The notes below the pieces were generated by a model, which was given only the letters and a program-made list of their open reading frames with translations, searched no databases and had not been told where the DNA came from. From Undibacterium sp. YM2 (GTDB lineage Bacteria; Pseudomonadota; Gammaproteobacteria; Burkholderiales; Burkholderiaceae_D): a stretch of DNA of 64,000 bases. Below are positions 36,299 to 63,591 of the stretch, piece after piece. Every line of letters starts with the position of its first letter. Positions within the stretch are counted from its first letter, which is position 1. The stretch spans positions 2,418,001 to 2,482,000 of the forward strand of contig NZ_AP018441.1 of assembly GCF_009937975.1 (NCBI RefSeq). The letters run 5' to 3'. Both the position numbers and the translations under genes were made by a program.

Positions 36299-36723
36299 TT
36301 GTTGAGCTTGCGTATGCGTTCTGCAGGCGTCACGATATCGGTCAGGCGTATACCGAATTTATCGTTGACCACAACCACCTCACCCTGGGCAATCAGGCAG
36401 CCATTGACCAGCACATCCATAGGCTCACCCGCCAGGCCGTCAAGTTCTACGACAGAGCCCTGTGCCAGTTGCAGCAGGTTTTTGATGGCGATCTTGGTTC
36501 TGCCCAACTCTACCGTCAGTTGAACCGGAATATCCAGAATGAAGTCGATGTCATTATGGGTTTCAGGTGCGTTACTGCTCTTGCCGCTGAACTCTTTAAA
36601 AATGGCAGCGCTGGCCGGTGGTGCTTCAGCTTTTTCGGCTGCCGCAGCTTCGGCTCTTTCCTGCTCTGCAATTGCAGCACCCCAGTCATCTTCACTGATG
36701 GGGGAATCGCCGTTGTCATCCAT
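36295..36723 (-). CDS. fliN: Flagellar motor switch protein FliN
   Basis: C-ring switch component. It has 142 residues with an acidic and Ala-rich N-terminus (about 1-60) before the SpoA/surface-presentation domain (DIPVQLTVELGRTKIAIKNLLQL..GSVVELDGLAGEPMDVLVNG). It overlaps fliM by 8 bases. Confidence 0.97.
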   Translation of the reverse strand: MDDNGDSPISEDDWGAAIAEQERAEAAAAEKAEAPPASAAIFKEFSGKSSNAPETHNDIDFILDIPVQLTVELGRTKIAIKNLLQLAQGSVVELDGLAGEPMDVLVNGCLIAQGEVVVVNDKFGIRLTDIVTPAERIRKLNK

Positions 36724-51453: not shown

Positions 51454-51480
51454 TTATCGGCAAAGACAAACCAGACTTTA
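51454..51480 (-). promoter_or_regulatory. Sigma-28 (FliA) promoter of fliD
   Basis: On the minus strand TAAA (51480-51477), 15 bases, then GCCGATAA (51461-51454): a perfect match to the flagellar sigma-28 core TAAA-N15-GCCGATAA. It lies 34 bases before the fliD ATG and should drive fliD-fliS-fliT and possibly downstream genes. Confidence 0.93.
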
Positions 51481-53512: not shown

Positions 53513-53916
53513 GGTGATTCTCCTTACCTAAGTTATACAATTTTGGCGTAGTAGCCTGAAACTTTGGTCTTTCGTGCTGACTATTGGACCGCCGTTGTAA
53601 AGGGTATCGGTAGAGACTAAAAAAGTTTTAGCGTGTTTCTGAAAATAAATCTTATTTTTTCTGCTCAAGTTTTTTTTCTCTTTCCGCTTGTCGGCGCTTT
53701 TTTTAAATACTTTAGGGGTAAATTTGATTTAGTTTTCGGCCTTTATTTAACACATGGAAACAAAATCATTAGCTATAAAATAAGCCTGAGCATGGTGGTT
53801 TCTGGTATTTTCCAGTGTGGACATGCAGTTTTATTCATTTTGCTTACTTAATTTGTAAGTCAGATGAGGTAATTGTAAAAAAGATTAATGATAAAAAGCT
53901 GACCTGGGGACCGGAC
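53513..53916. other. 404-base divergent region between fliC and the glycan operon
   Basis: Contains the fliC sigma-28 promoter (53604-53630). The rest, 53631-53916, is AT-rich with T-runs and no credible gene. A short CTTAC/GTAAG hairpin lies near 53837-53855. The operon's own promoter was not identified with confidence; a sigma-28-like TAAA near 53719 lacks a proper GCCGATAA. Confidence 0.7.
53604..53630 (-). promoter_or_regulatory. Sigma-28 (FliA) promoter of fliC
   Basis: On the minus strand TAAA (53630-53627), 15 bases, then ACCGATAC (53611-53604), matching 6 of 8 bases of GCCGATAA including the central CCGATA. It lies 91 bases before the fliC ATG. Confidence 0.88.
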
Positions 53917-56121
53917 ATGGCAAAAACGAGTTTTGATGCGCGAAAAGCAATGCGCGATGTTCATCGACTTTTCGATGCTGGTTCTGTTTCCGAGGCCAGG
54001 CAAGGCTGCCTGACCATCATCAGGCATTTTCCGCGTCACGCAGAAGCTTTATATGCCCTGGCCAGGATGGCTGGGGATGCGGGTGAGAGTGATGAAGCCA
54101 TGGGATATCTGAAACTGGCTTTTGACGTCATGCCTCACTTTCCTGACAACAGGAAGATTGCTTTCGGCATATTCAATAAATATTTGCTGGCGAAACAGTA
54201 CCCCCAATTGGAAGAGGCTGGCCTGTGGCTATCAGCTTATTTGCCACGGGACGGCATCGTTTGGGACTATATAGGTGTAGCCAGGATAGAGCAGGCCAAG
54301 TTTCCGCAAGCACTTGAAGTGTTGAGCAAGGCTGTTGCCTTGTTGCCAAATAACCCCCACATACTTGCCAATATGGGCAATGTGCTGATTTCTCTGGAGC
54401 GTTGTTCCGATGCCATCGTGTATCTGGAAAAAGCACTGGCTATTCAGCCAGAGATGGTTGTTGGCCTCAATAATCTGGGAAATGCATTGCGTTTCATAGG
54501 CAAGACAGAGGAGGCGATAGCGAGTATATCGAAAGCAGTTCAATTAGACCCGGGTTTGCCCTATCTGTACAATAATCTTGGTCTCGCTTATCGTGAGCAC
54601 GGTATGTATAGCGTCGCCATCGAACAATACCGGCACGCCTTGCAACTGCAGCCAGAGCTGGTACAGGTTTATCCCAATCTGATTGATGCACTGCGCCAGA
54701 ACGGGCAAGTGCAGGAATCCATAGAGTGCGGGCAGCATGCGCTGACGCTGACCCACGATATTCCTGAAATCTGGGGGGCTTATGGTGACACCTTGCGCGA
54801 GGCGAACCATCTCGATGCGGCGATTGAAGCTTATATCAAGGCCCTGTCTTTCAAGCAGGATAGCGTGTCTTCTTTCAACCGGAAAATTTACACTAACCTC
54901 TTATTTTGTCTGAATTACCATCCGGATTTAACGCCTGAGGTGATTTATAACGCTTACCATGAATTTGATTTGCGTTTTACTGCGCCGCTCAAGGCAACAT
55001 GGAAGAAATTTGAAAATGTCCGCGTGCCGGGCAGACGTCTCAAAGTGGGCTATGTGACGCAAGCTTTTTATAATCATGTTTGCAAGTATTTCCTGCTGCC
55101 GCTGATAGAGGGCCATGACAAGGATCAGGTTGAAGTCTATGCCTACGCAAATCCGCCTTTCGAAGATGAAGTGACTGCCTATTATAAGAAGCAGGTAGAT
55201 CACTGGGTGCCAACCCGGGATCTGACGGATGAGGCGCTGGCCGAGCGTATTCGCGCCGACGGGATTGATGTCCTGGTGGATGTGGCAGGCCATACCAATG
55301 GCAATCGTTTACCGGTCTTTGCGCGCAAACCGGCCCCTGTTTCCTTGCATTGGCTGGAGTATGGTTACACGACGGGTCTAAGTGCCATAGATTATTACTT
55401 GACTGACAAGCCCACAATTACGGACAATTGCGCACATTTATTTTCTGAGAAAGTCTGGTGCCTGGATGGTCCGGCCTATGTTTACAGGCCAGATACGCGC
55501 AGGGCAGAGCTGACGCCTTCACCTTTTGAAAAAACAGGTCTGATTACCTTCGGTAGTTTATCGCGTTCAACCAGGATAAATCATCGTGTAGTGCGCGTCT
55601 GGGCAACGATACTGGATGCAATGCCAGATTCGCAATTAATAATCAATAGTGGTGACTTTAAAGACCCACAAGTACAGGAAGAAATGGCATCACGCTTCAT
55701 GCGCTATGGTATAGAGCGCTCACGATTACATATAGGATTCAGTACACCATCCTGGGAAGTGTTGAAACACATCGATATCAGCCTGGATTGTTTTCCCCAT
55801 AATTCGGGAACGACTCTGCTTGAGTCGTTATATATGGGCATACCCTTTATCTCTCTGGCAGACCGGCCTTCAGTTGGTCGCATCGGCGCCAGCATATTGA
55901 CAGCAATCGGGCATGAAGAGTGGCAGGCTTATACAGAAGATGAATATGCGCAAAAAGCGATTATCCTCGCACATGATCTGGACGGTCTGCGCAGCCTGAG
56001 GGCTGGTTTGCGCCAGGAAATGGAGCAATCCCTGCTCATGAACGAACCGGCATTCGCACGTTCAGTCGAAAAAGCTTATCGCCAGATGTGGCAAATTTAT
56101 TGTGAAGGACAGGAAGAGTGA
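53917..56121 (+). CDS. TPR O-GlcNAc-transferase-like (SPINDLY/GT41) glycosyltransferase
   Basis: 734 residues from ATG 53917, chosen because a GGGGA ribosome-binding site sits 6 bases before it; longer upstream frames are AT-rich. N-terminal TPR repeats (about residues 40-330) are followed by a GT41 catalytic region with [20 protein letters not shown] (His near 459), the LTDK motif, [17 protein letters not shown] and a donor-binding [16 protein letters not shown] (near 628-643). Family members add sugars to Ser/Thr of proteins; adjacency to fliC suggests flagellin as target. It overlaps rfbF by 4 bases. Confidence 0.9.
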
Positions 56122-56887
56122 AGGCCGTTATTTTAGCTGGTGGTCTGGGTACCCGTATTTCTGAAGAGACCCACCTCAAGCCCAAACCCATGATAGAGAT
56201 AGGGGGCACCCCATACTCTGGCACATCATGAAGTCGTACTCGGCGCATGGTGTGAATGAATTCGTGATTTGTTGTGGTTACAAGGGTTATCTGATCAAGG
56301 AATATTTTGCTAATTATTTCCTGCACATGTCAGACGTTACCTTCGACATGCAGAATAATAGTATGGAGGTGCATGAGCACCATGCTGAACCCTGGAAGGT
56401 AACCCTGGTCGATACCGGGGAAGACACCATGACTGGCGGGCGTCTCAAGCGTGTTGCACGCTATTTGCAGGGCGAGGAAGCTTTTTGCTTTACCTATGGT
56501 GATGGCGTTGCAGACCTGGACATTGCGGCGTCCATCGCATTCCATAAGCAACACGGCAAACTGGCTACCGTTACAGCAGTTCTGCCTCCCGGACGCTATG
56601 GCGCACTGGAGCGCAACGGCAATCAGGTCGCCGGTTTTATCGAAAAGCCGCGTGGTGACGGCGGCTGGATCAACGGCGGATATTTCGTGCTGTCTCCGAA
56701 AGTACTGGATTTTATCGAGAATGACAGTATCAGCTGGGAAGCCGCTCCACTTGCTGAATTGGCAAAGCGCCAGGAATTAATGGCCTTCGAGCACAGTGGA
56801 TTCTGGCAGCCCATGGATACCTTGCGTGAAAAAAATCTGCTGGAAGACTTGTGGCAATCCGGAAAAGCACCTTGGCGAGTATGGTAA
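56118..56887 (+). pseudogene. rfbF: Glucose-1-phosphate cytidylyltransferase RfbF, split by a -1 frameshift
   Basis: Would make CDP-glucose from CTP and glucose-1-phosphate. GTG 56118 overlaps the previous stop (GTGA). It starts [23 protein letters not shown], the nucleotidyltransferase signature, but reaches a stop after GGTPYSGTS. The rest ([22 protein letters not shown] to WRVW) lies in another frame. One extra base in the G5 (56202-56206) or C4 (56209-56212) run restores PILWHIMK and a full 257-residue enzyme. It feeds rfbG, so real loss would disable CDP-sugar synthesis unless another copy exists. Confidence 0.88.
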
Positions 56888-57960
56888 ATCATCCCACACA
56901 AACAAGCATCGTTGATCCGGCCTTCTGGCGCGGGCGCCGTGTCTTGCTGACCGGGCACACTGGTTTTAAGGGAGCCTGGCTGGCACACTGGCTGTCTGGC
57001 ATGGGTGCCGTAGTGCATGGCCTGGCTCTGGCTCCGGTTACCGAGCCTAATTTGTTCGATTTGCTCAATATTGAAGACAAGGTCTGCAGCCACATTGGCG
57101 ACATACGCGATATCCATGCCGTGACTGCAGCGGTGGAGGCATGTCAGCCAGAGTTTGTATTCCATCTGGCGGCGCAAGCCCTGGTGCGCGCGAGTTATCG
57201 TGAGCCTCTGGTGACTTTTGCCAGCAATATCATGGGCACCGCCAATCTGCTGGAGGCTATCAGAGGGCGCAGCGATGTAAAGCTTGCGCTGATTGTGACG
57301 ACGGATAAAGTCTATCGCAATCTTGAGCAGATCCATCCCTATCCGGAAACCGCTGAATTGGGCGGACATGACCCGTATAGCGCGAGCAAAGCTGCAGCAG
57401 AACTGGTGCTGGCTAGTTATCGTGCTTCATTCTTGGCCGGGCAGGGTACAGCCGTGCTGGCCGCCAGGGCCGGGAATGTGATTGGCGGTGGCGACTGGTC
57501 TGAAGACAGATTACTTCCGGATGCCGTAAGAGCCTGGCAAAGCGGCCAGACTTTGCAGATCCGCCGTCCCGACTCTGTCCGGCCATGGCAACATGTACTG
57601 GAGCCGCTGTCAGCTTATCTGTGTCTTGCCCAGTATGCCCATGCAAATCCACACGTTAGCCATGCGTGGAACATCGGCCCCGATGATGCTGCAAGTGTCA
57701 GAACAGTGGTAGAACTGGCTCAGGCTGCTTACGGTAGTGGACAGACTGAATTTGCGACTGATATCGTTGGCCCGCATGAAGCAGGTTTATTGGCATTGGA
57801 TGCCAGCAAATTGAGGCAGACCCTGGGAATTACCCCGCGCTGGAATCTTGAGCAGGCGGTCAGCCGCAGCATGCACTGGTATCGTGATTTTGCGCAAGCT
57901 CAGTGTGCTGCAGAATTGTGTGACCGTGACATTGCCGCTTTCATGGCAGGTAATGCATGA
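56881..57960 (+). CDS. rfbG: CDP-glucose 4,6-dehydratase RfbG
   Basis: NAD-dependent SDR making CDP-4-keto-6-deoxyglucose. It has 359 residues from ATG 56881, overlapping rfbF by 7 bases; GTG 56851 is the alternative. Rossmann TGHTGFKGAWL near 23, VTTDKVYRN and the YSASKAAAE catalytic Tyr/Lys motif are present. It typically works right after RfbF. Confidence 0.95.
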   Translation: MVNHPTQTSIVDPAFWRGRRVLLTGHTGFKGAWLAHWLSGMGAVVHGLALAPVTEPNLFDLLNIEDKVCSHIGDIRDIHAVTAAVEACQPEFVFHLAAQALVRASYREPLVTFASNIMGTANLLEAIRGRSDVKLALIVTTDKVYRNLEQIHPYPETAELGGHDPYSASKAAAELVLASYRASFLAGQGTAVLAARAGNVIGGGDWSEDRLLPDAVRAWQSGQTLQIRRPDSVRPWQHVLEPLSAYLCLAQYAHANPHVSHAWNIGPDDAASVRTVVELAQAAYGSGQTEFATDIVGPHEAGLLALDASKLRQTLGITPRWNLEQAVSRSMHWYRDFAQAQCAAELCDRDIAAFMAGNA

Positions 57961-58535
57961 TGAAGCTCTCAGCCTCAGGCCGTTTTGAAATTTTATCGAC
58001 GCCTCTGGATAGTCTGTACCTGCTGCAAAGAAAAGTGCTGGGTGATCAGCGCGGCTATTTTCAGCGCATGTTTTGTGCAACAGATTTGGCTGAATTGGGC
58101 TGGCATGAACCTATAGCGCAGGTAAATCATACCTATACCTCAGTAAAAGGGTCTATACGTGGCATGCACCTGCAATTGCCCCCCAGTGCAGAAATGAAAT
58201 TAATCACTTGCATGAAAGGCGAGGTCTGGGATGTGGCCGTAGATTTGCGCGCTGATTCTGCCACTTTCTTGCAATGGCATGCTGTGTTGTTGTCACAAGC
58301 GAATCAGCGCTCGTTTTTAATACCTGCCGGTTTCGCCCATGGCTTTCAAACTCTGTCGGATGAGGTTGAAATGCTATATTGTCATAGCAAGCCTTATGTA
58401 CCGGCAGATGAAATGGGGTTAAATCCATTTGATGCCCGGTTGGCAATAGAATGGCCTTTGGGGGCAACCGAGATGTCGGATAAAGACCGCAACTGGCCCA
58501 TGTTAAGCAAAGAATTTCAAGGAGTGATTGTATGA
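57957..58535 (+). CDS. RmlC-type dTDP/CDP-keto-sugar 3,5-epimerase family protein
   Basis: 192-residue cupin of the dTDP-4-dehydrorhamnose 3,5-epimerase family: DQRGYFQRMF, QVNHTYTSVKGSIRGMHLQ (catalytic His) and AGFAHGFQTLSD are conserved. In this cluster it probably epimerises the CDP-4-keto-6-deoxyglucose made by RfbG, though which carbons are affected is unknown. It overlaps rfbG and the next gene by 4 bases each (ATGA). Confidence 0.88.
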   Translation: MMKLSASGRFEILSTPLDSLYLLQRKVLGDQRGYFQRMFCATDLAELGWHEPIAQVNHTYTSVKGSIRGMHLQLPPSAEMKLITCMKGEVWDVAVDLRADSATFLQWHAVLLSQANQRSFLIPAGFAHGFQTLSDEVEMLYCHSKPYVPADEMGLNPFDARLAIEWPLGATEMSDKDRNWPMLSKEFQGVIV

Positions 58536-59758
58536 AGTGCCGGCATTGCGCGCATGAGTTGACGCAAACCTTTCTCGATCTTGGTTCAGCACCGCCATCG
58601 AATGCCTATTTAAAACCAGAAGCCCTGAGCCAGGCAGAAATCTGGCTGCCTTTGAAAGTAATGGTTTGTGATGCTTGCTGGCTGGCACAAACCCTGGATT
58701 TTACCGGGCGTGAAAATTTATTCGATGCCGACTACGCCTATTTCAGTTCATTTTCTTCCAGCTGGCTGGCCCATGCGAAGAAATTTGTTGAAACGATGCG
58801 TCAGGATTTGAGCTTGAATTCGCAAAGCCTGGTGATGGAAGTTGCGGCAAATGACGGGTATTTATTGCAGTACGTGCAGGAGGCTGGCATCCCGTGTTTT
58901 GGGGTGGAACCAACTGCTAGCACCGCTGCGGCAGCAAGGGAAAAAGGCATTAAGGTCATAGAACGCTTCTTTGGTGTGGAGTTGGCAAAGGAGATACTCG
59001 CACGTGGTCAGCGCGTTGATTTATCGGTCGCCAATAATGTATTGGCGCATGTACCTGACATCAATGATTTTGTTGCTGGTTTTAGCTTGGTCTTAAGCGA
59101 GCAAGGTGTCGCCAGTTTTGAATTTCCGCATTTGTTGAATATGGTGGAGCAAAACCAGTTTGATACTGCTTACCATGAACATTATTCTTATCTGTCACTG
59201 CATGCGGTCAAAACAGTGTTTGCAAAAAATGGTTTGCATGTATTTGATGTGCAGGAGTGGCCAACGCATGGCGGCAGCCTGCGTGTACTTGCTCAGAGAA
59301 TGGATATCAGGTACCGCGAAGAAAAAGCCAGTGTCGCACAAATACTGCAAGCAGAGCAGGCAGCGGGTATTCTCAATACCGGCTTTTATGAGGCAGCACA
59401 GGCTAAGGCAGAATCTGCCAAGTTCGCATTGCTGGAGTTTTTGCTCAATGCAAAACGCAATGGCACGCGTGTAGCCGCCTACGGCGCTGCCGCCAAGGGC
59501 AATACCTTGCTGAACTTTTCTGGAGTCAGGCCTGATCTCTTGCCGTATGTCGTGGATATCAACACCCATAAGCAAGGTAAATTCATGCCTGGCAGCCATA
59601 TACCTATTGTTGATATTCAGCATTTGCTGGCAGATAAGCCGGATTTCATTCTTATTTTGCCCTGGAATTTGCAGGCAGAAATCATGCAAGACCTCGCCCA
59701 GGCAAAAAACTGGGGTGGGCAATTCGTCGTTGCGATTCCTCAATTAACGGTGTTGTAA
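58532..59758 (+). CDS. Sugar C-methyltransferase (TylC3-like family)
   Basis: 408-residue SAM enzyme with three parts: an N-terminal zinc site (Cys3, Cys6, Cys46, Cys49), a central methyltransferase domain (MEVAANDGYLLQYVQ near 98; EFPHLL, HEHYSYLS) and a C-terminal domain (AAYGAAAKGNTLLNF, VDINTHKQGKFMPGSHIPI). This layout is that of NDP-keto-hexose 3-C-methyltransferases making branched sugars. Here it would act on the CDP-keto-sugar after the epimerase. Substrate is inferred. Confidence 0.88.
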   Translation: MKCRHCAHELTQTFLDLGSAPPSNAYLKPEALSQAEIWLPLKVMVCDACWLAQTLDFTGRENLFDADYAYFSSFSSSWLAHAKKFVETMRQDLSLNSQSLVMEVAANDGYLLQYVQEAGIPCFGVEPTASTAAAAREKGIKVIERFFGVELAKEILARGQRVDLSVANNVLAHVPDINDFVAGFSLVLSEQGVASFEFPHLLNMVEQNQFDTAYHEHYSYLSLHAVKTVFAKNGLHVFDVQEWPTHGGSLRVLAQRMDIRYREEKASVAQILQAEQAAGILNTGFYEAAQAKAESAKFALLEFLLNAKRNGTRVAAYGAAAKGNTLLNFSGVRPDLLPYVVDINTHKQGKFMPGSHIPIVDIQHLLADKPDFILILPWNLQAEIMQDLAQAKNWGGQFVVAIPQLTVL

Positions 59759-59767
59759 GAGCTCAGC

Positions 59768-60256
59768 ATGATAGAGATACATCCAGATGCGCGAATTTCT
59801 AAATTGGCTGATATTGAAGATTCAGTCAGGGGGACGCGCATTATCATAGGTGCTTTTTCCAGCATAGACAGCTTTGTCAAATTCAAGCCTGCCGGTGGCG
59901 TGGCCGATGTTGTGATTGGTGAGCGCAGTGTCATCAATTCTGGCTGCGTCCTGTATACGGGAAACGGCATCGTGATAGGGAATGACGTCGCGATTGCCGC
60001 GAATTGTACTTTTGCGCCAGTCAATCATGCCTATCACGACAAAAGCCGGCGCATCAATCAACAAGGCTTCTTGCCAGGCAAAGGCGGTATCATCATTGAA
60101 GACGATGTCTGGATAGGAGCAAATTGCGTGATACTTGATGGTGCCATCTTGAGGCAGGGCTGCGTCATAGGTGCAGGTTCTATCGTCCGCTCTGAAGTTG
60201 CTGCGTACTCCATTAATGTTGGCAACCCCTTGCAACAAATCGGGATGCGCAAATGA
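59768..60256 (+). CDS. Hexapeptide-repeat acyltransferase
   Basis: 162-residue left-handed beta-helix acyltransferase of the acetyltransferase/maltose O-acetyltransferase type. Hexapeptide turns run through IIIGAFSSID, VVIGERSVIN, IVIGNDVAIA, IIIEDDVWIG and CVIGAGSIV; the active-site His is likely in FAPVNHAYHD. It may acetylate the operon's sugar. It overlaps the next gene by 4 bases. Confidence 0.85.
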   Translation: MIEIHPDARISKLADIEDSVRGTRIIIGAFSSIDSFVKFKPAGGVADVVIGERSVINSGCVLYTGNGIVIGNDVAIAANCTFAPVNHAYHDKSRRINQQGFLPGKGGIIIEDDVWIGANCVILDGAILRQGCVIGAGSIVRSEVAAYSINVGNPLQQIGMRK

Positions 60257-61068
60257 GCGAGGCTTTGCGCGCAACCCTGATAGGTGGCAAGGGCTTTGTC
60301 GGGCGGCATCTGCACCAGGCTTTGCAAGCAAAGGGATGGGACAGTTATGTCGCAGAACGTGATGATCCGCGGCTGACAACAGATGACCTGGGTCATGTTT
60401 TTTATTGCGCTGGTCTGACGGCCGATTTCCGGCAACGTCCCTATGCCACAGTAGATGCCCATGTGCATCTGCTATCAAGTATTTTGCAACATACTCGTTT
60501 TGCCAGCCTGACTTACTTGTCGAGTACCCGTGTTTACGCTGGTGCTCTAAATACACAAGAAGACGCAGCATTGACCGTCAGCGCTCACTTGTCTGGCGAT
60601 TTATATAATATTTCCAAGCTCATGGGTGAAAGCCTGTGCCTGCATGGTGGTCGCAATGTGCGTGTAGTTCGTTTATCGAATGTGTATGGAGCAGGGATGC
60701 CAGAGCAGAATTTCCTGGCAGATATCTTAAATTCCGCAACGAAAACCAAACGGGTGGTATTTCGCAGCAGCCCTGATTCGGAAAAAGATTACATTTCCAT
60801 CACAGATGTCGTGCGTTTTTTACCCATAATTGCCACACAAGGTGAGATTGGCATATACAATTTAGCCAGGGGCAGGAATACTACGCATGCCAGAATCGCA
60901 GCATTGCTGGAACAGTTCGGCGTCAGTTGTGAATTCGAAAATCATGCACCATGCATCAGTTTTCCGCCTATTTCCATATTAAAGCTGGAGTCTTTGTCCG
61001 GGCAGCCGGAATTGGATATAGCAAGTGAATTACCAGCGCTTTTTAATCATTACACAAAAAAACCATGA
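60253..61068 (+). CDS. NAD(P)-dependent SDR epimerase/dehydratase family protein
   Basis: 271-residue extended-SDR-like protein. A GGKGFVG nucleotide-binding motif follows the start, a serine-rich YLSSTRVY loop and catalytic YNISK lie in the middle. It is shorter than RfbG-type enzymes. It may reduce the 4-keto group after C-methylation, finishing the sugar, but this is inferred from context. It overlaps the next gene by 4 bases. Confidence 0.85.
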   Translation: MSEALRATLIGGKGFVGRHLHQALQAKGWDSYVAERDDPRLTTDDLGHVFYCAGLTADFRQRPYATVDAHVHLLSSILQHTRFASLTYLSSTRVYAGALNTQEDAALTVSAHLSGDLYNISKLMGESLCLHGGRNVRVVRLSNVYGAGMPEQNFLADILNSATKTKRVVFRSSPDSEKDYISITDVVRFLPIIATQGEIGIYNLARGRNTTHARIAALLEQFGVSCEFENHAPCISFPPISILKLESLSGQPELDIASELPALFNHYTKKP

Positions 61069-61814
61069 ATCCGATTAAACAATTTGAAGCAGAACGCGAT
61101 GCCCGCATAGAGCAATTGGGCAAAGACCTTGAGTTCCAGGCGCAGTCCCGCGACTGGCTGGAACAAAGCATGCGTCGTCAGTATGTTTATAATTTTTCAT
61201 GGTTGGGGCGCCCCATCATACAAAACCCGATAGACATGATGGCGATGCAAGAACTGATCTGGACGGTGCAGCCCGATCTCATCATAGAAACCGGTATTGC
61301 TCATGGCGGTTCGATTATTTACTCCGCTTCCTTGCTGGAGTTAAACGCTGCTTGCGGCGGTAATCCTGACGCTAAAGTTATTGGTATCGATATTGATATT
61401 CGCGAACACAATAAGGAAGCAATTCTGCAGCACCCTATGTCCAGGCGTATACAGATGCTGCAGGGATCAAGCGTCGCCACTGAGATTGTGGACCAGGTGA
61501 AGGCCATTGCACAGGGCAAACAGAAAGTCCTGGTTTTCCTGGATTCCAACCATACCCACGAACATGTATTGGCTGAGCTGCAGGCTTACGCACCACTGGT
61601 AACGAAAGACAGTTATTGCGTCGTATTTGATACTTTTGTAGAAGATGTGCCGGCAGACGTATTTGATAACCGTCCATGGCAGCCGGGAAATAGCCCGAAG
61701 ACAGCAGTGCATGAATATCTGAAAACTCATCCAGAATTCGTGATAGACAAGGCCATGGACTATAAATTGCAGATTACCGTGGCACCTGACGGCTTCCTGA
61801 AGCGGGTCAGCTAG
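61065..61814 (+). CDS. CmcI-type (cephalosporin hydroxylase family) methyltransferase-like protein
   Basis: 249 residues of the CmcI/rhamnosyl O-methyltransferase family: SWLGRPIIQNPIDMMAMQELI, SAM-binding-type IETGIAHGGSI (near 74) and metal-binding-type VFLDSNHTHEHV (Asp160, His163). Despite the family name, most members are thought to be SAM-dependent O-methyltransferases; here it could O-methylate the sugar. Last gene of the operon, followed by a strong terminator. Confidence 0.85.
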   Translation: MNPIKQFEAERDARIEQLGKDLEFQAQSRDWLEQSMRRQYVYNFSWLGRPIIQNPIDMMAMQELIWTVQPDLIIETGIAHGGSIIYSASLLELNAACGGNPDAKVIGIDIDIREHNKEAILQHPMSRRIQMLQGSSVATEIVDQVKAIAQGKQKVLVFLDSNHTHEHVLAELQAYAPLVTKDSYCVVFDTFVEDVPADVFDNRPWQPGNSPKTAVHEYLKTHPEFVIDKAMDYKLQITVAPDGFLKRVS

Positions 61815-61825
61815 AAAAAAAGTTC

Positions 61826-61867
61826 AAAAAAACACGGAGGACATCATTTTGTCTTTCGTGTTTTTTT
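61826..61867 (+). terminator. Terminator of the glycan operon
   Basis: AACACGGAGGACA (61831-61843) pairs with TGTCTTTCGTGTT (61850-61862), 13 pairs including two G-U, 6-base loop, leading straight into a T-run to 61867. The A-rich left flank also gives some activity on the minus strand. Confidence 0.9.
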
Positions 61868-61938
61868 GTATTCGCTTTTTACTTTTTTACTGATACTGAT
61901 CAGCGACATATTTCCCCTGATCTGCTGATCCCTTAATA

Positions 61939-63591
61939 TCAGCCAGCCTTGATGACGCGGTTTTTGCCAGACTGTTTTGCCTCGTACATAGCCTTATCGG
62001 CACGCTTGATGGTTTCTTCTTGTGGCTCGCGTGGATTGCGCAAGGCAACGCCCGCACTGAAAGTGATGAACAAGCGTTGATCATTGGCCGTGAAGAAGTG
62101 CTTGGTCAGTTCTCTTTGCACGCGCATCATGGCCTGGGCAGCTTCTTCCAGCTGCGTTTCTGGCATGATGATGACAAATTCCTCACCGCCGTAGCGTGCT
62201 ACCATGTCTATGGATCTCAGGGTTTGCTTGACAATGCGTACCAGGTGAACCAGCGCCTCATCACCGGCGGCGTGGCCGTGGGTGTCGTTGAGCTTCTTGA
62301 AGTTATCAAGATCCAGCAGGGCTACGCAAAGTGGCGTGTTACGTCGGTCAGACCTGTCGGCTTCGCGTTCAAATACATCGTCCATACCCCTGCGGTTCAG
62401 GCTGCCTGTCAGTTGGTCTTCCCTGACCAGTTCACTCATGTGGGCAAGTTTGTTTTCCAGTTCCTTGATGCGTGCCTCTGCTTCGCTGACCTCTTTTTGA
62501 GCAGCGACTATCATGTCACGCGAACGCAGGGTTTCAGACTGGACTTCCCTGGTTTCGTTGAGGATATTCCTGATCAGGTCGCTGACCTCGGCAACATTCT
62601 TGGCTGAACTCAGTTGTTGTGAGTAGGTGCCCATTTTGTGCTGATAAGCGCCGGTGCTGTCTGCCATGGCATTCAATCTGTCGATAAATGCCGTCATCAT
62701 GTTCTTGACTGAGGTTTTTGACTCGTCAATACTGGTTTTCAATACGCCTTGCTTGTAGATGACATCTTTCAGGCTGCGCGTGGCTTCTTGCAGGGCACGG
62801 TGATCAATCGGGCCCGCGATGAGATTTTGTACCACCTCGATCTGGCCGCGTAACCAGTTATCGTTATCAAGCAGATCGTGGATATTGGTCAGCAGCAGGT
62901 CGAACAGGCGCAGCAGCAATTCCTGTTGTTCAGCGCTGTCACCGCTTTGCAGTTCAATCTGAAAGCACAATTGCTTGAGTCTGCCAGCAATCATGTTCAG
63001 CTCACCTTCATTGACCGCAACCTTGACCGCTGTGCCCAGGCTTTCCGACTCTTCGGCAAGTTGCGGGCTAGGTTTCAGTAGCGAGGTGAGGGCAAGGGTC
63101 AGGGTGCGGTACAGTAAGTCCTTGAGGATGCGCAACCTGCCATCCTCAACCGGGCCATCATCAACCAGTGAGATGCTCTTGCTGGCAACAGGCGTTGGCA
63201 GCGGATCGACGAGACTGATGTTATTGGAGGCAGTTGGCGGCGGAGCCGTAATACGTTCAGCCAGTTGTGTCAGGCCACGGCCATAATCTTGCCAGTTGCC
63301 AGTTTTGATCGCACGGCTGAAGCGTTGCCCAAAAGTGGACATCTCACCTGTCGAAATCTGCAGGCTGTTGGCAAAATTGGCAAGTAAAATCTCGGCTTGC
63401 GGAATGACTGGAGTTGCCTCCATTTCAGGCGGGGCTTCTACCGGAGTATCCGGAACACCTGCTATATCATTATAGAGTTTGCGGTAGGCCTCTGGTGTTG
63501 GCGCAATGCGCTGTATTGCCAATTGTCTGAATGTCTCGCGCGCAATATCTGTAGGACTTTTAAACTGCGAATTATTTGGAGTTTTCGACAT
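61939..63591 (-). CDS. GGDEF diguanylate cyclase
   Basis: Makes c-di-GMP from GTP. It has 550 residues. The N-terminal 370 residues have no domain I recognise and no membrane segment; helical coiled-coil sequence (about 340-390) links it to the GGDEF domain (about 390-548) with GGEEF at 468-472 and an upstream RxxD inhibitory site (RSID), suggesting product inhibition. It is likely soluble and regulated by the N-terminal sensor part. It stands alone, converging with the glycan operon. Confidence 0.93.
   Translation of the reverse strand: MSKTPNNSQFKSPTDIARETFRQLAIQRIAPTPEAYRKLYNDIAGVPDTPVEAPPEMEATPVIPQAEILLANFANSLQISTGEMSTFGQRFSRAIKTGNWQDYGRGLTQLAERITAPPPTASNNISLVDPLPTPVASKSISLVDDGPVEDGRLRILKDLLYRTLTLALTSLLKPSPQLAEESESLGTAVKVAVNEGELNMIAGRLKQLCFQIELQSGDSAEQQELLLRLFDLLLTNIHDLLDNDNWLRGQIEVVQNLIAGPIDHRALQEATRSLKDVIYKQGVLKTSIDESKTSVKNMMTAFIDRLNAMADSTGAYQHKMGTYSQQLSSAKNVAEVSDLIRNILNETREVQSETLRSRDMIVAAQKEVSEAEARIKELENKLAHMSELVREDQLTGSLNRRGMDDVFEREADRSDRRNTPLCVALLDLDNFKKLNDTHGHAAGDEALVHLVRIVKQTLRSIDMVARYGGEEFVIIMPETQLEEAAQAMMRVQRELTKHFFTANDQRLFITFSAGVALRNPREPQEETIKRADKAMYEAKQSGKNRVIKAG

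Follow-up and report, generated by a model that had tools for sequence, protein, structure and literature searches.

Gene content of the fliC locus

The window analysed here is a 64,000-nucleotide stretch (G000:C1:2418001-2482000) of the 6.66-Mb genome of Undibacterium sp. YM2 (genome label G000), and our subject is a run of eight genes within it that starts beside the flagellin gene fliC and joins a GT41-family glycosyltransferase to predicted genes for a cytidine diphosphate (CDP)-activated sugar (Table 1). The GT41 gene heads the run, which lies wholly on the plus strand (53917-61814) and ends at a terminator-like hairpin; a consensus scan returned 17 such hairpins in the window against 9.4 in shuffled sequences. 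An earlier sequence-only reading of this DNA had placed the GT41 start about 400 bases from fliC and described tight GTGA and ATGA gene junctions, and both descriptions agree with the sequence and the list of open reading frames (ORFs). The divergent starts of fliC and the GT41 gene are separated by 404 bp, the GT41/rfbF junction is GTGA at 56118-56121, rfbF and rfbG overlap at 56881-56887, and ATGA junctions join rfbG to rmlC (57957-57960), rmlC to the C-methyltransferase gene (58532-58535), the hexapeptide gene to the short-chain dehydrogenase/reductase (SDR) gene (60253-60256) and the latter to the CmcI-family gene (61065-61068). The sole gap in the run is 9 bp (59759-59767), between the C-methyltransferase and hexapeptide genes. 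Beyond the hairpin lies a GGDEF gene, which we presume to be one from its GGEEF motif.

Table 1. Features of the fliC locus, in window coordinates (TPR, tetratricopeptide repeat).
Feature	Position	Strand	Remarks
fliC flagellin, 495 aa	52025..53512	-	Flagellin_N and Flagellin_C; divergent from the operon; proposed acceptor
GT41 protein glycosyltransferase, 734 aa	53917..56121	+	N-terminal TPR superhelix and C-terminal GT-B domain, SPINDLY/OGT type
rfbF, glucose-1-phosphate cytidylyltransferase	56118..56887	+	TIGR02623 on the 3' piece; frame broken near the start
rfbG, CDP-glucose 4,6-dehydratase	56881..57960	+	TIGR02622; TDK...YSASK fits the CDP-type fingerprint
RmlC-like 3,5- (or 3-) epimerase	57957..58535	+	PF00908; PDB 3,5-epimerases; TIGR01221 near cut-off
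Sugar 3-C-methyltransferase	58532..59758	+	PF08421 (zinc-binding N domain) and PF08484 (C-methyltransferase C domain)
Hexapeptide-repeat acyl/acetyltransferase	59768..60256	+	PF00132
SDR, probable C4-ketoreductase	60253..61068	+	PF01370; YNISK motif
RMNT/CmcI-family methyltransferase, probable sugar O-methyltransferase	61065..61814	+	PF04989
Terminator-like hairpin closing the operon	61825..61868	+	19 pairs and a T-rich tail
GGDEF gene bordering the insertion site	61939..63591	-	Adjoins fliC where the operon is absent

The operon is present or missing as a unit beside fliC in Undibacterium

Among 36 Undibacterium genomes (the set includes the window's own), a GT41 ortholog was found in 25, one of which (G018) has only the end of the gene on its contig. 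In all 23 loci with enough contig, fliC was the divergent neighbor of the GT41 gene; L051 has a flagellin fragment between the two, and fliC of L045 is split in two. The GT41 gene is followed by rfbF in 25/25, by rfbG in 24/25 and by rmlC and the C-methyltransferase gene in 23/25, the rest lying beyond contig ends. The operon is far beyond chance, as its succession of genes is repeated in 25 genomes up to wherever their contigs end. TIGR02622 scored over its cut-off in 27/36 genomes, with one copy each, and 24 of these copies are inside the operon, including that of the window, whose rfbG is the only CDP-glucose dehydratase over the cut-off in its genome.

The GT41 ortholog is missing from 11 of the 36 genomes. 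Five of these (G011, G014, G016, G021 and G023) have an empty site, at which fliC adjoins the GGDEF gene and the ORF list shows nothing of 90 aa or more between them, and none of the five has an rfbG over the TIGR02622 cut-off. The operon is present or absent as a whole unit at the fliC/GGDEF site. In one further genome (G015), which lacks an rfbG over the cut-off, a different GT41 gene lies at fliC with an aminotransferase set behind it; the fliC flank was unreadable in G007, G022 and G035. In G019 and U. pigrum G034, rfbG lies about 12 kb past a different GT41 gene, also at fliC, whose product has lysine at the phosphate-site position considered below, and in G022 rfbG lies elsewhere. The G019 and G034 loci (L079, L080) run from this Lys-type GT41 gene beside fliC through genes for an aminotransferase, WbqC-like and AMP-binding proteins and others before rfbF-rfbG-rmlC-C-methyltransferase, and probably represent a longer glycan locus, judging from Pfam matches for L079 only.

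Twenty-two loci are complete through the operon (the window and L039-L059), and they vary at its distal end. The hexapeptide and SDR genes are present in 18/22; in the other four (L050, L056, L058 and L059) they are replaced by two genes, one of about 370-380 aa and one of about 213-235 aa; for L050 and L056, Pfam identified these as a DegT aminotransferase and an acyltransferase. This suggests an amino-sugar version of the glycan in these species, and the exchange is as expected if the SDR acts on a C4 ketone. The CmcI gene is likewise present in 18/22, with a gene of about 217-235 aa at its position in L054-L057 (no Pfam match in the two tested). Two extra genes lie past CmcI in L043, L051, L052 and L053; in L043 these are PhyH and TylF-like.

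The enzymes predict a branched, O-methylated 6-deoxyhexose

RfbF and RfbG both matched equivalog models of the CDP-glucose pathway above their cut-offs, RfbF on the 3' piece of its broken gene (TIGR02623, 382.6 bits against 300.25) and RfbG over TIGR02622 (432.7 bits against 278.45). RfbG also carries TTDKVY...YSASK, in keeping with [ST]DK...Yx3K, which PMC8987622 gives as the fingerprint of CDP-glucose 4,6-dehydratases. The epimerase scored 155.3 bits for TIGR01221, 0.45 bits below the cut-off of 155.75, and its best PDB matches are 3,5-epimerases (E 1.5e-36). The C-methyltransferase is homologous over its full length to sugar 3-C-methyltransferases (PDB 5t64; the D-mycarose enzyme, 4rv9; TcaB9, 3ndi; E about 1e-62), and shares their Y-x-E-H motif as Y214-H215-E216-H217, invariant in the 15 rows of alignment A2. 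This motif has a functional role in sugar 3-C-methyltransferases; TcaB9 and the D-mycarose enzyme act on deoxythymidine diphosphate (dTDP)-sugars of antibiotics, whereas the window enzyme is placed in a CDP pathway. The CmcI-family protein matched PF04989 with 317.3 bits, CmcI structures weakly, and the rhamnosyl O-methyltransferase model NF045824 with E 1.7e-27, below the cut-off. Of 25 NCBIfam matches listed for the hexapeptide protein, none exceeded its own cut-off.

Taken together, the C-methyltransferase, epimerase and CmcI-family homologies predict a CDP-6-deoxy-3-C-methyl-O-methyl-hexose, which would narrow the CDP-activated deoxysugar of the sequence-only reading to a 3-C-methyl, O-methyl 6-deoxyhexose. 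From these families we infer the order of steps and the structure of the sugar as follows. RfbF would activate glucose-1-phosphate to CDP-glucose, which RfbG would dehydrate to CDP-4-keto-6-deoxyglucose; the RmlC-like protein would epimerise this intermediate and the C-methyltransferase would then methylate carbon 3. The SDR would reduce C4 (with transamination instead in some species), the CmcI-family protein would O-methylate, most likely at C2, the position methylated by rhamnosyl O-methyltransferases, and the hexapeptide protein would possibly add an acyl group. The predicted product, a CDP-6-deoxy-3-C-methyl-2-O-methyl-hexose, is of vinelose type.

The same cassette in Azotobacter vinelandii

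CDP-vinelose (6-deoxy-3-C-methyl-2-O-methyl-L-talose as the sugar) is a compound isolated in the 1960s from Azotobacter vinelandii. To our knowledge, vinelose-type CDP-sugars are orphan metabolites known only as Azotobacter compounds, and we found no paper on vinelose among the open-access papers searched. Each step required for CDP-vinelose has a fitting family in the window operon (cytidylyltransferase, 4,6-dehydratase, epimerase, 3-C-methyltransferase, C4 ketoreductase and O-methyltransferase), a correspondence by family only and with rfbF broken in the window. One difference is that CDP-vinelose has no acyl group, whereas the hexapeptide gene suggests one.

A search for Fe-only nitrogenase in 398 genomes of the family of Pseudomonas xionganensis gave four genomes over the cut-off. 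One of these, G119, was taken as A. vinelandii: its three nitrogenase loci lie at positions that we take to be those of this species, and its AnfD and PDB 8boq_A are identical across 513 residues. The C-methyltransferase profile matched once in G119, which also has one rfbF and one rfbG. Its locus (L184) contains fliC, a gene for a GT41-plus-GT2 protein and, convergent with them, rfbF, rfbG, rmlC, C-methyltransferase, hexapeptide, SDR, CmcI, PhyH and TylF genes. The seven sugar genes of the window thus recur close to fliC and a GT41 gene, and in identical order, in a species that makes CDP-vinelose, and the A. vinelandii cassette may explain this compound. Of six further genomes from the nitrogenase search, five have no match to the C-methyltransferase profile; the sixth (G080) has a cassette with other tailoring genes, also adjoining GT41 and flagellin genes.

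The GT41 enzyme

The glycosyltransferase matched Glyco_transf_41 (PF13844) with 139.8 bits, over the cut-off of 25, in addition to several TPR families, and has the OGT/SPY fold of GT41. Its nearest solved glycosyltransferases, in both sequence and fold, are Arabidopsis SPINDLY (PDB 8dtf and 7y4i) and TtOGT (5djs). The protein differs from these in lacking the conserved phosphate-binding lysine, having Arg 553 at this position, and arginine is present in 14/14 rows of alignment A1. We take the lysine to be K665 of SPY and K842 of OGT, with a presumed role at the phosphate site. As arginine for lysine is common to many of the bacterial GT41s compared, we keep the window protein in the family as a variant. 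The known enzymes use guanosine diphosphate (GDP)-fucose or uridine diphosphate N-acetylglucosamine (UDP-GlcNAc) as donors, and we know of no OGT/SPY enzyme that uses the CDP nucleotide class.

The genome contains three more GT41 genes (G000:C1, about 638 kb, 4.45 Mb and 5.12 Mb). No matches to CDP-cassette proteins were found in the 20 kb around these.

Recurrence outside the genus

Pairing of GT41 with CDP-sugar genes had looked unusual in the sequence-only reading, which proposed a neighborhood search for GT41 beside rfbF/rfbG; our sampling shows the pairing recurring in other Proteobacteria rather than being peculiar to this genome. In an order-level sample of 300 evenly drawn genomes, 82 had an rfbG over the cut-off, and in at least 12 of these the same contig carried a GT41 gene no more than 10 kb away (G000, G029, G033, G490, G530, G564, G574, G608, G641, G677, G689 and G695; nine are outside Undibacterium). 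This count is a lower bound, since scoring was limited to the top three GT41 candidates of each genome and the list of matches is incomplete. It compares with about 0.4 expected by chance, as we estimate from about 45 genomes that have both genes, 1.7 matches in each and 20 kb out of about 3.6 Mb.

We also scanned named genomes with the C-methyltransferase alignment, and examined all of the best 80 of 594 loci within the retrieved stretch. RfbG was present in 75/80 and RfbF in 70/80, and a GT41 catalytic domain in 20/80 (one being Undibacterium; five of the GT41s were checked with Pfam). Flagellin was found in 15 loci, a FlgL-like protein in 21 and either FliC or FlgL in 31, and 12 combined GT41 with FliC. 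These 12 include Undibacterium, Achromobacter dolens, Acidovorax, Curvibacter, Rhodoferax, Caldimonas, P. xionganensis and P. ullengensis, so that cassette, GT41 and flagellin occur together in both Beta- and Gammaproteobacteria. GT41 without flagellin in the stretch was seen in Methylobacterium, Rhabdaerophilum, Sulfuritalea, Allochromatium and others.

A probable flagellin O-glycosylation cassette

We consider, with fair but not high confidence, that the operon is a cassette for O-glycosylation of flagellin with a vinelose-type sugar. The closest known parallel is FlmG of Caulobacter crescentus which, according to PMC7591256, is a cytoplasmic flagellin O-glycosyltransferase working with a pseudaminic acid pathway, a sugar usually activated with cytidine monophosphate. 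FlmG is a TPR-plus-GT-B enzyme with a dedicated sugar pathway, like the window GT41; the pathways differ, that of the window leading to a predicted CDP-6-deoxy-3-C-methyl hexose and lying in one operon beside fliC. By analogy with FlmG, the simplest reading would be that the GT41 enzyme transfers the CDP-sugar to FliC in the cytoplasm. Donor and acceptor we infer on this basis: the TPR arm would bind newly made FliC in the cytoplasm, and the enzyme would transfer the sugar to Ser/Thr of the FliC surface domain before export. The sequence-only proposal of a dedicated flagellin-glycan operon of GT41 and CDP-deoxysugar genes gains from the conserved linkage to fliC, the presence or absence of the whole unit and the sole over-cut-off CDP-glucose dehydratase inside it; the CDP-sugar as donor of the GT41 enzyme and flagellin as its carrier are proposals.

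GT41-type flagellin glycosylation and CDP-sugar pathways are already known separately; we found no paper joining the two in the open-access literature, in an incomplete search. A wider proposal, which we hold tentatively and at slightly less than even confidence, is that the operon is a route to vinelose-type CDP-sugars destined for flagellin, that GT41s use a CDP-activated branched deoxysugar as donor, and that in Proteobacteria the whole cassette is exchanged beside fliC, its C4 chemistry alternating between a ketoreductase and an aminotransferase. If true, this would give genes and a purpose to the orphan nucleotide sugar CDP-vinelose, extend the donor range of OGT/SPINDLY enzymes to CDP-sugars, and provide a small, self-contained and naturally present-or-absent cassette for studying flagellar coating. 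A. vinelandii, being a standard laboratory organism, makes the question directly testable.

Alternative destinations, donors and states of the operon

Several observations weigh against a flagellin cassette, and concern the destination of the sugar, the donor of the GT41 enzyme and the state of the operon in this isolate. First, 70 of the 82 rfbG genomes of the order have no GT41 within 10 kb among the matches listed, and 49 of the 80 C-methyltransferase loci have neither FliC nor FlgL within the stretch, so the CDP pathway mostly serves other purposes. In addition, three other genomes with Fe-only nitrogenase (G073, G090 and G114, probably other Azotobacter) are among those lacking the C-methyltransferase. 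The first two counts would also fit a CDP-sugar that goes into lipopolysaccharide or exopolysaccharide, its place beside fliC being historical. We regard this as very improbable, given that the whole operon comes and goes exactly at the fliC/GGDEF site, that the linkage is kept in 25 genomes, and that cassette, GT41 and flagellin gene coincide in 12/80 loci, in Beta- and Gammaproteobacteria.

Second, GT41s beside CDP cassettes include enzymes with Arg and others with Lys at the phosphate-site position, and there are Arg-type paralogs that no CDP genes adjoin. Arginine for lysine had been considered as a marker of a CDP donor and was rejected: Undibacterium paralogs with no adjoining cassette have it too, and it is absent from the cassette-associated GT41s of Acidovorax, Curvibacter, Caldimonas and A. 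vinelandii. As both types occur at cassettes, a CDP donor cannot be read from any residue. In A. vinelandii the GT41 carries a fused GT2 domain, and may for this reason attach another, inner sugar there. Many Pseudomonas cassettes adjoin flgK-flgL and have GT2-type proteins and no GT41; in L126, for example, rfbF-rfbG-rmlC-C-methyltransferase-CmcI lies behind flgK and a FlgL-like gene, by flagellar genes as in the window, with GT2-type proteins (identified by Pfam) where the window has GT41, and homologs of its 1212-aa protein were found in 23 of the 80 loci. This variable residue, the fusion and the GT2-type proteins in the place of GT41 all favor an arrangement in which GT41 adds a common sugar (such as GlcNAc from UDP-GlcNAc) to flagellin and a glycosyltransferase encoded elsewhere puts the CDP-sugar on top. 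We consider this unlikely for the window, as no second glycosyltransferase gene was found in its operon (ORF list and Pfam) or among the classified operon genes of its relatives (unclassified ORFs were Pfam-checked in part).

Third, rfbF is broken in this genome, which the sequence-only reading had missed, and not all genes of its CDP-glucose pathway are intact. The frame starting at GTG 56118 meets a stop after 37 codons (5' piece, 56118-56231), and the remainder is an ORF in a different frame (56228-56887). In contrast to the 24/24 relatives examined, in which rfbF is open over 256-267 codons, the window's gene is thus interrupted, and it is the sole TIGR02623 match of the genome (E 1e-20 or better), with no second copy. 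The isolate may therefore not make the sugar. The break may be either a sequencing error or a real mutation. If real, the operon could be decaying or phase-variable here and the flagellin without this sugar, a possibility that we rate as a minority one, if the least remote of the three alternatives: all genes downstream of rfbF are open, the nearest relative has every operon gene open, at 87-98% identity to those here, and such frame breaks are a common assembly error.

FliC and flagellar promoters

The sequence-only reading had pointed to a Ser/Thr/Ala-rich surface domain in FliC, which proved overstated and not diagnostic. In 22 FliC proteins beside the operon the mean central Ser+Thr fraction is 0.32, and in five at empty sites it is 0.28; with contents so nearly equal, we did not retain the domain as evidence of glycosylation.

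Arguments from promoters were likewise set aside. Sigma-70-like sites numbered 8, against 11.3 in shuffled sequences. With a consensus that we presume for sigma-28-like sites, three exact matches were found in the window against 0.09 expected (36336-36361, 51455-51480 and 53605-53630), all on the minus strand and none facing the operon; the second and third precede fliD and fliC, respectively.

FliC from L040, L044, L046 and L047 is 94-98% identical to that of the window. In the same set, 24-52% of the codons for identical residues differ in their third position, and FliD is only 68-90% identical. Since FliC stays this similar despite third-position divergence and lower FliD identity, the comparison points to strong purifying selection on the whole flagellin in these five loci, surface domain included.

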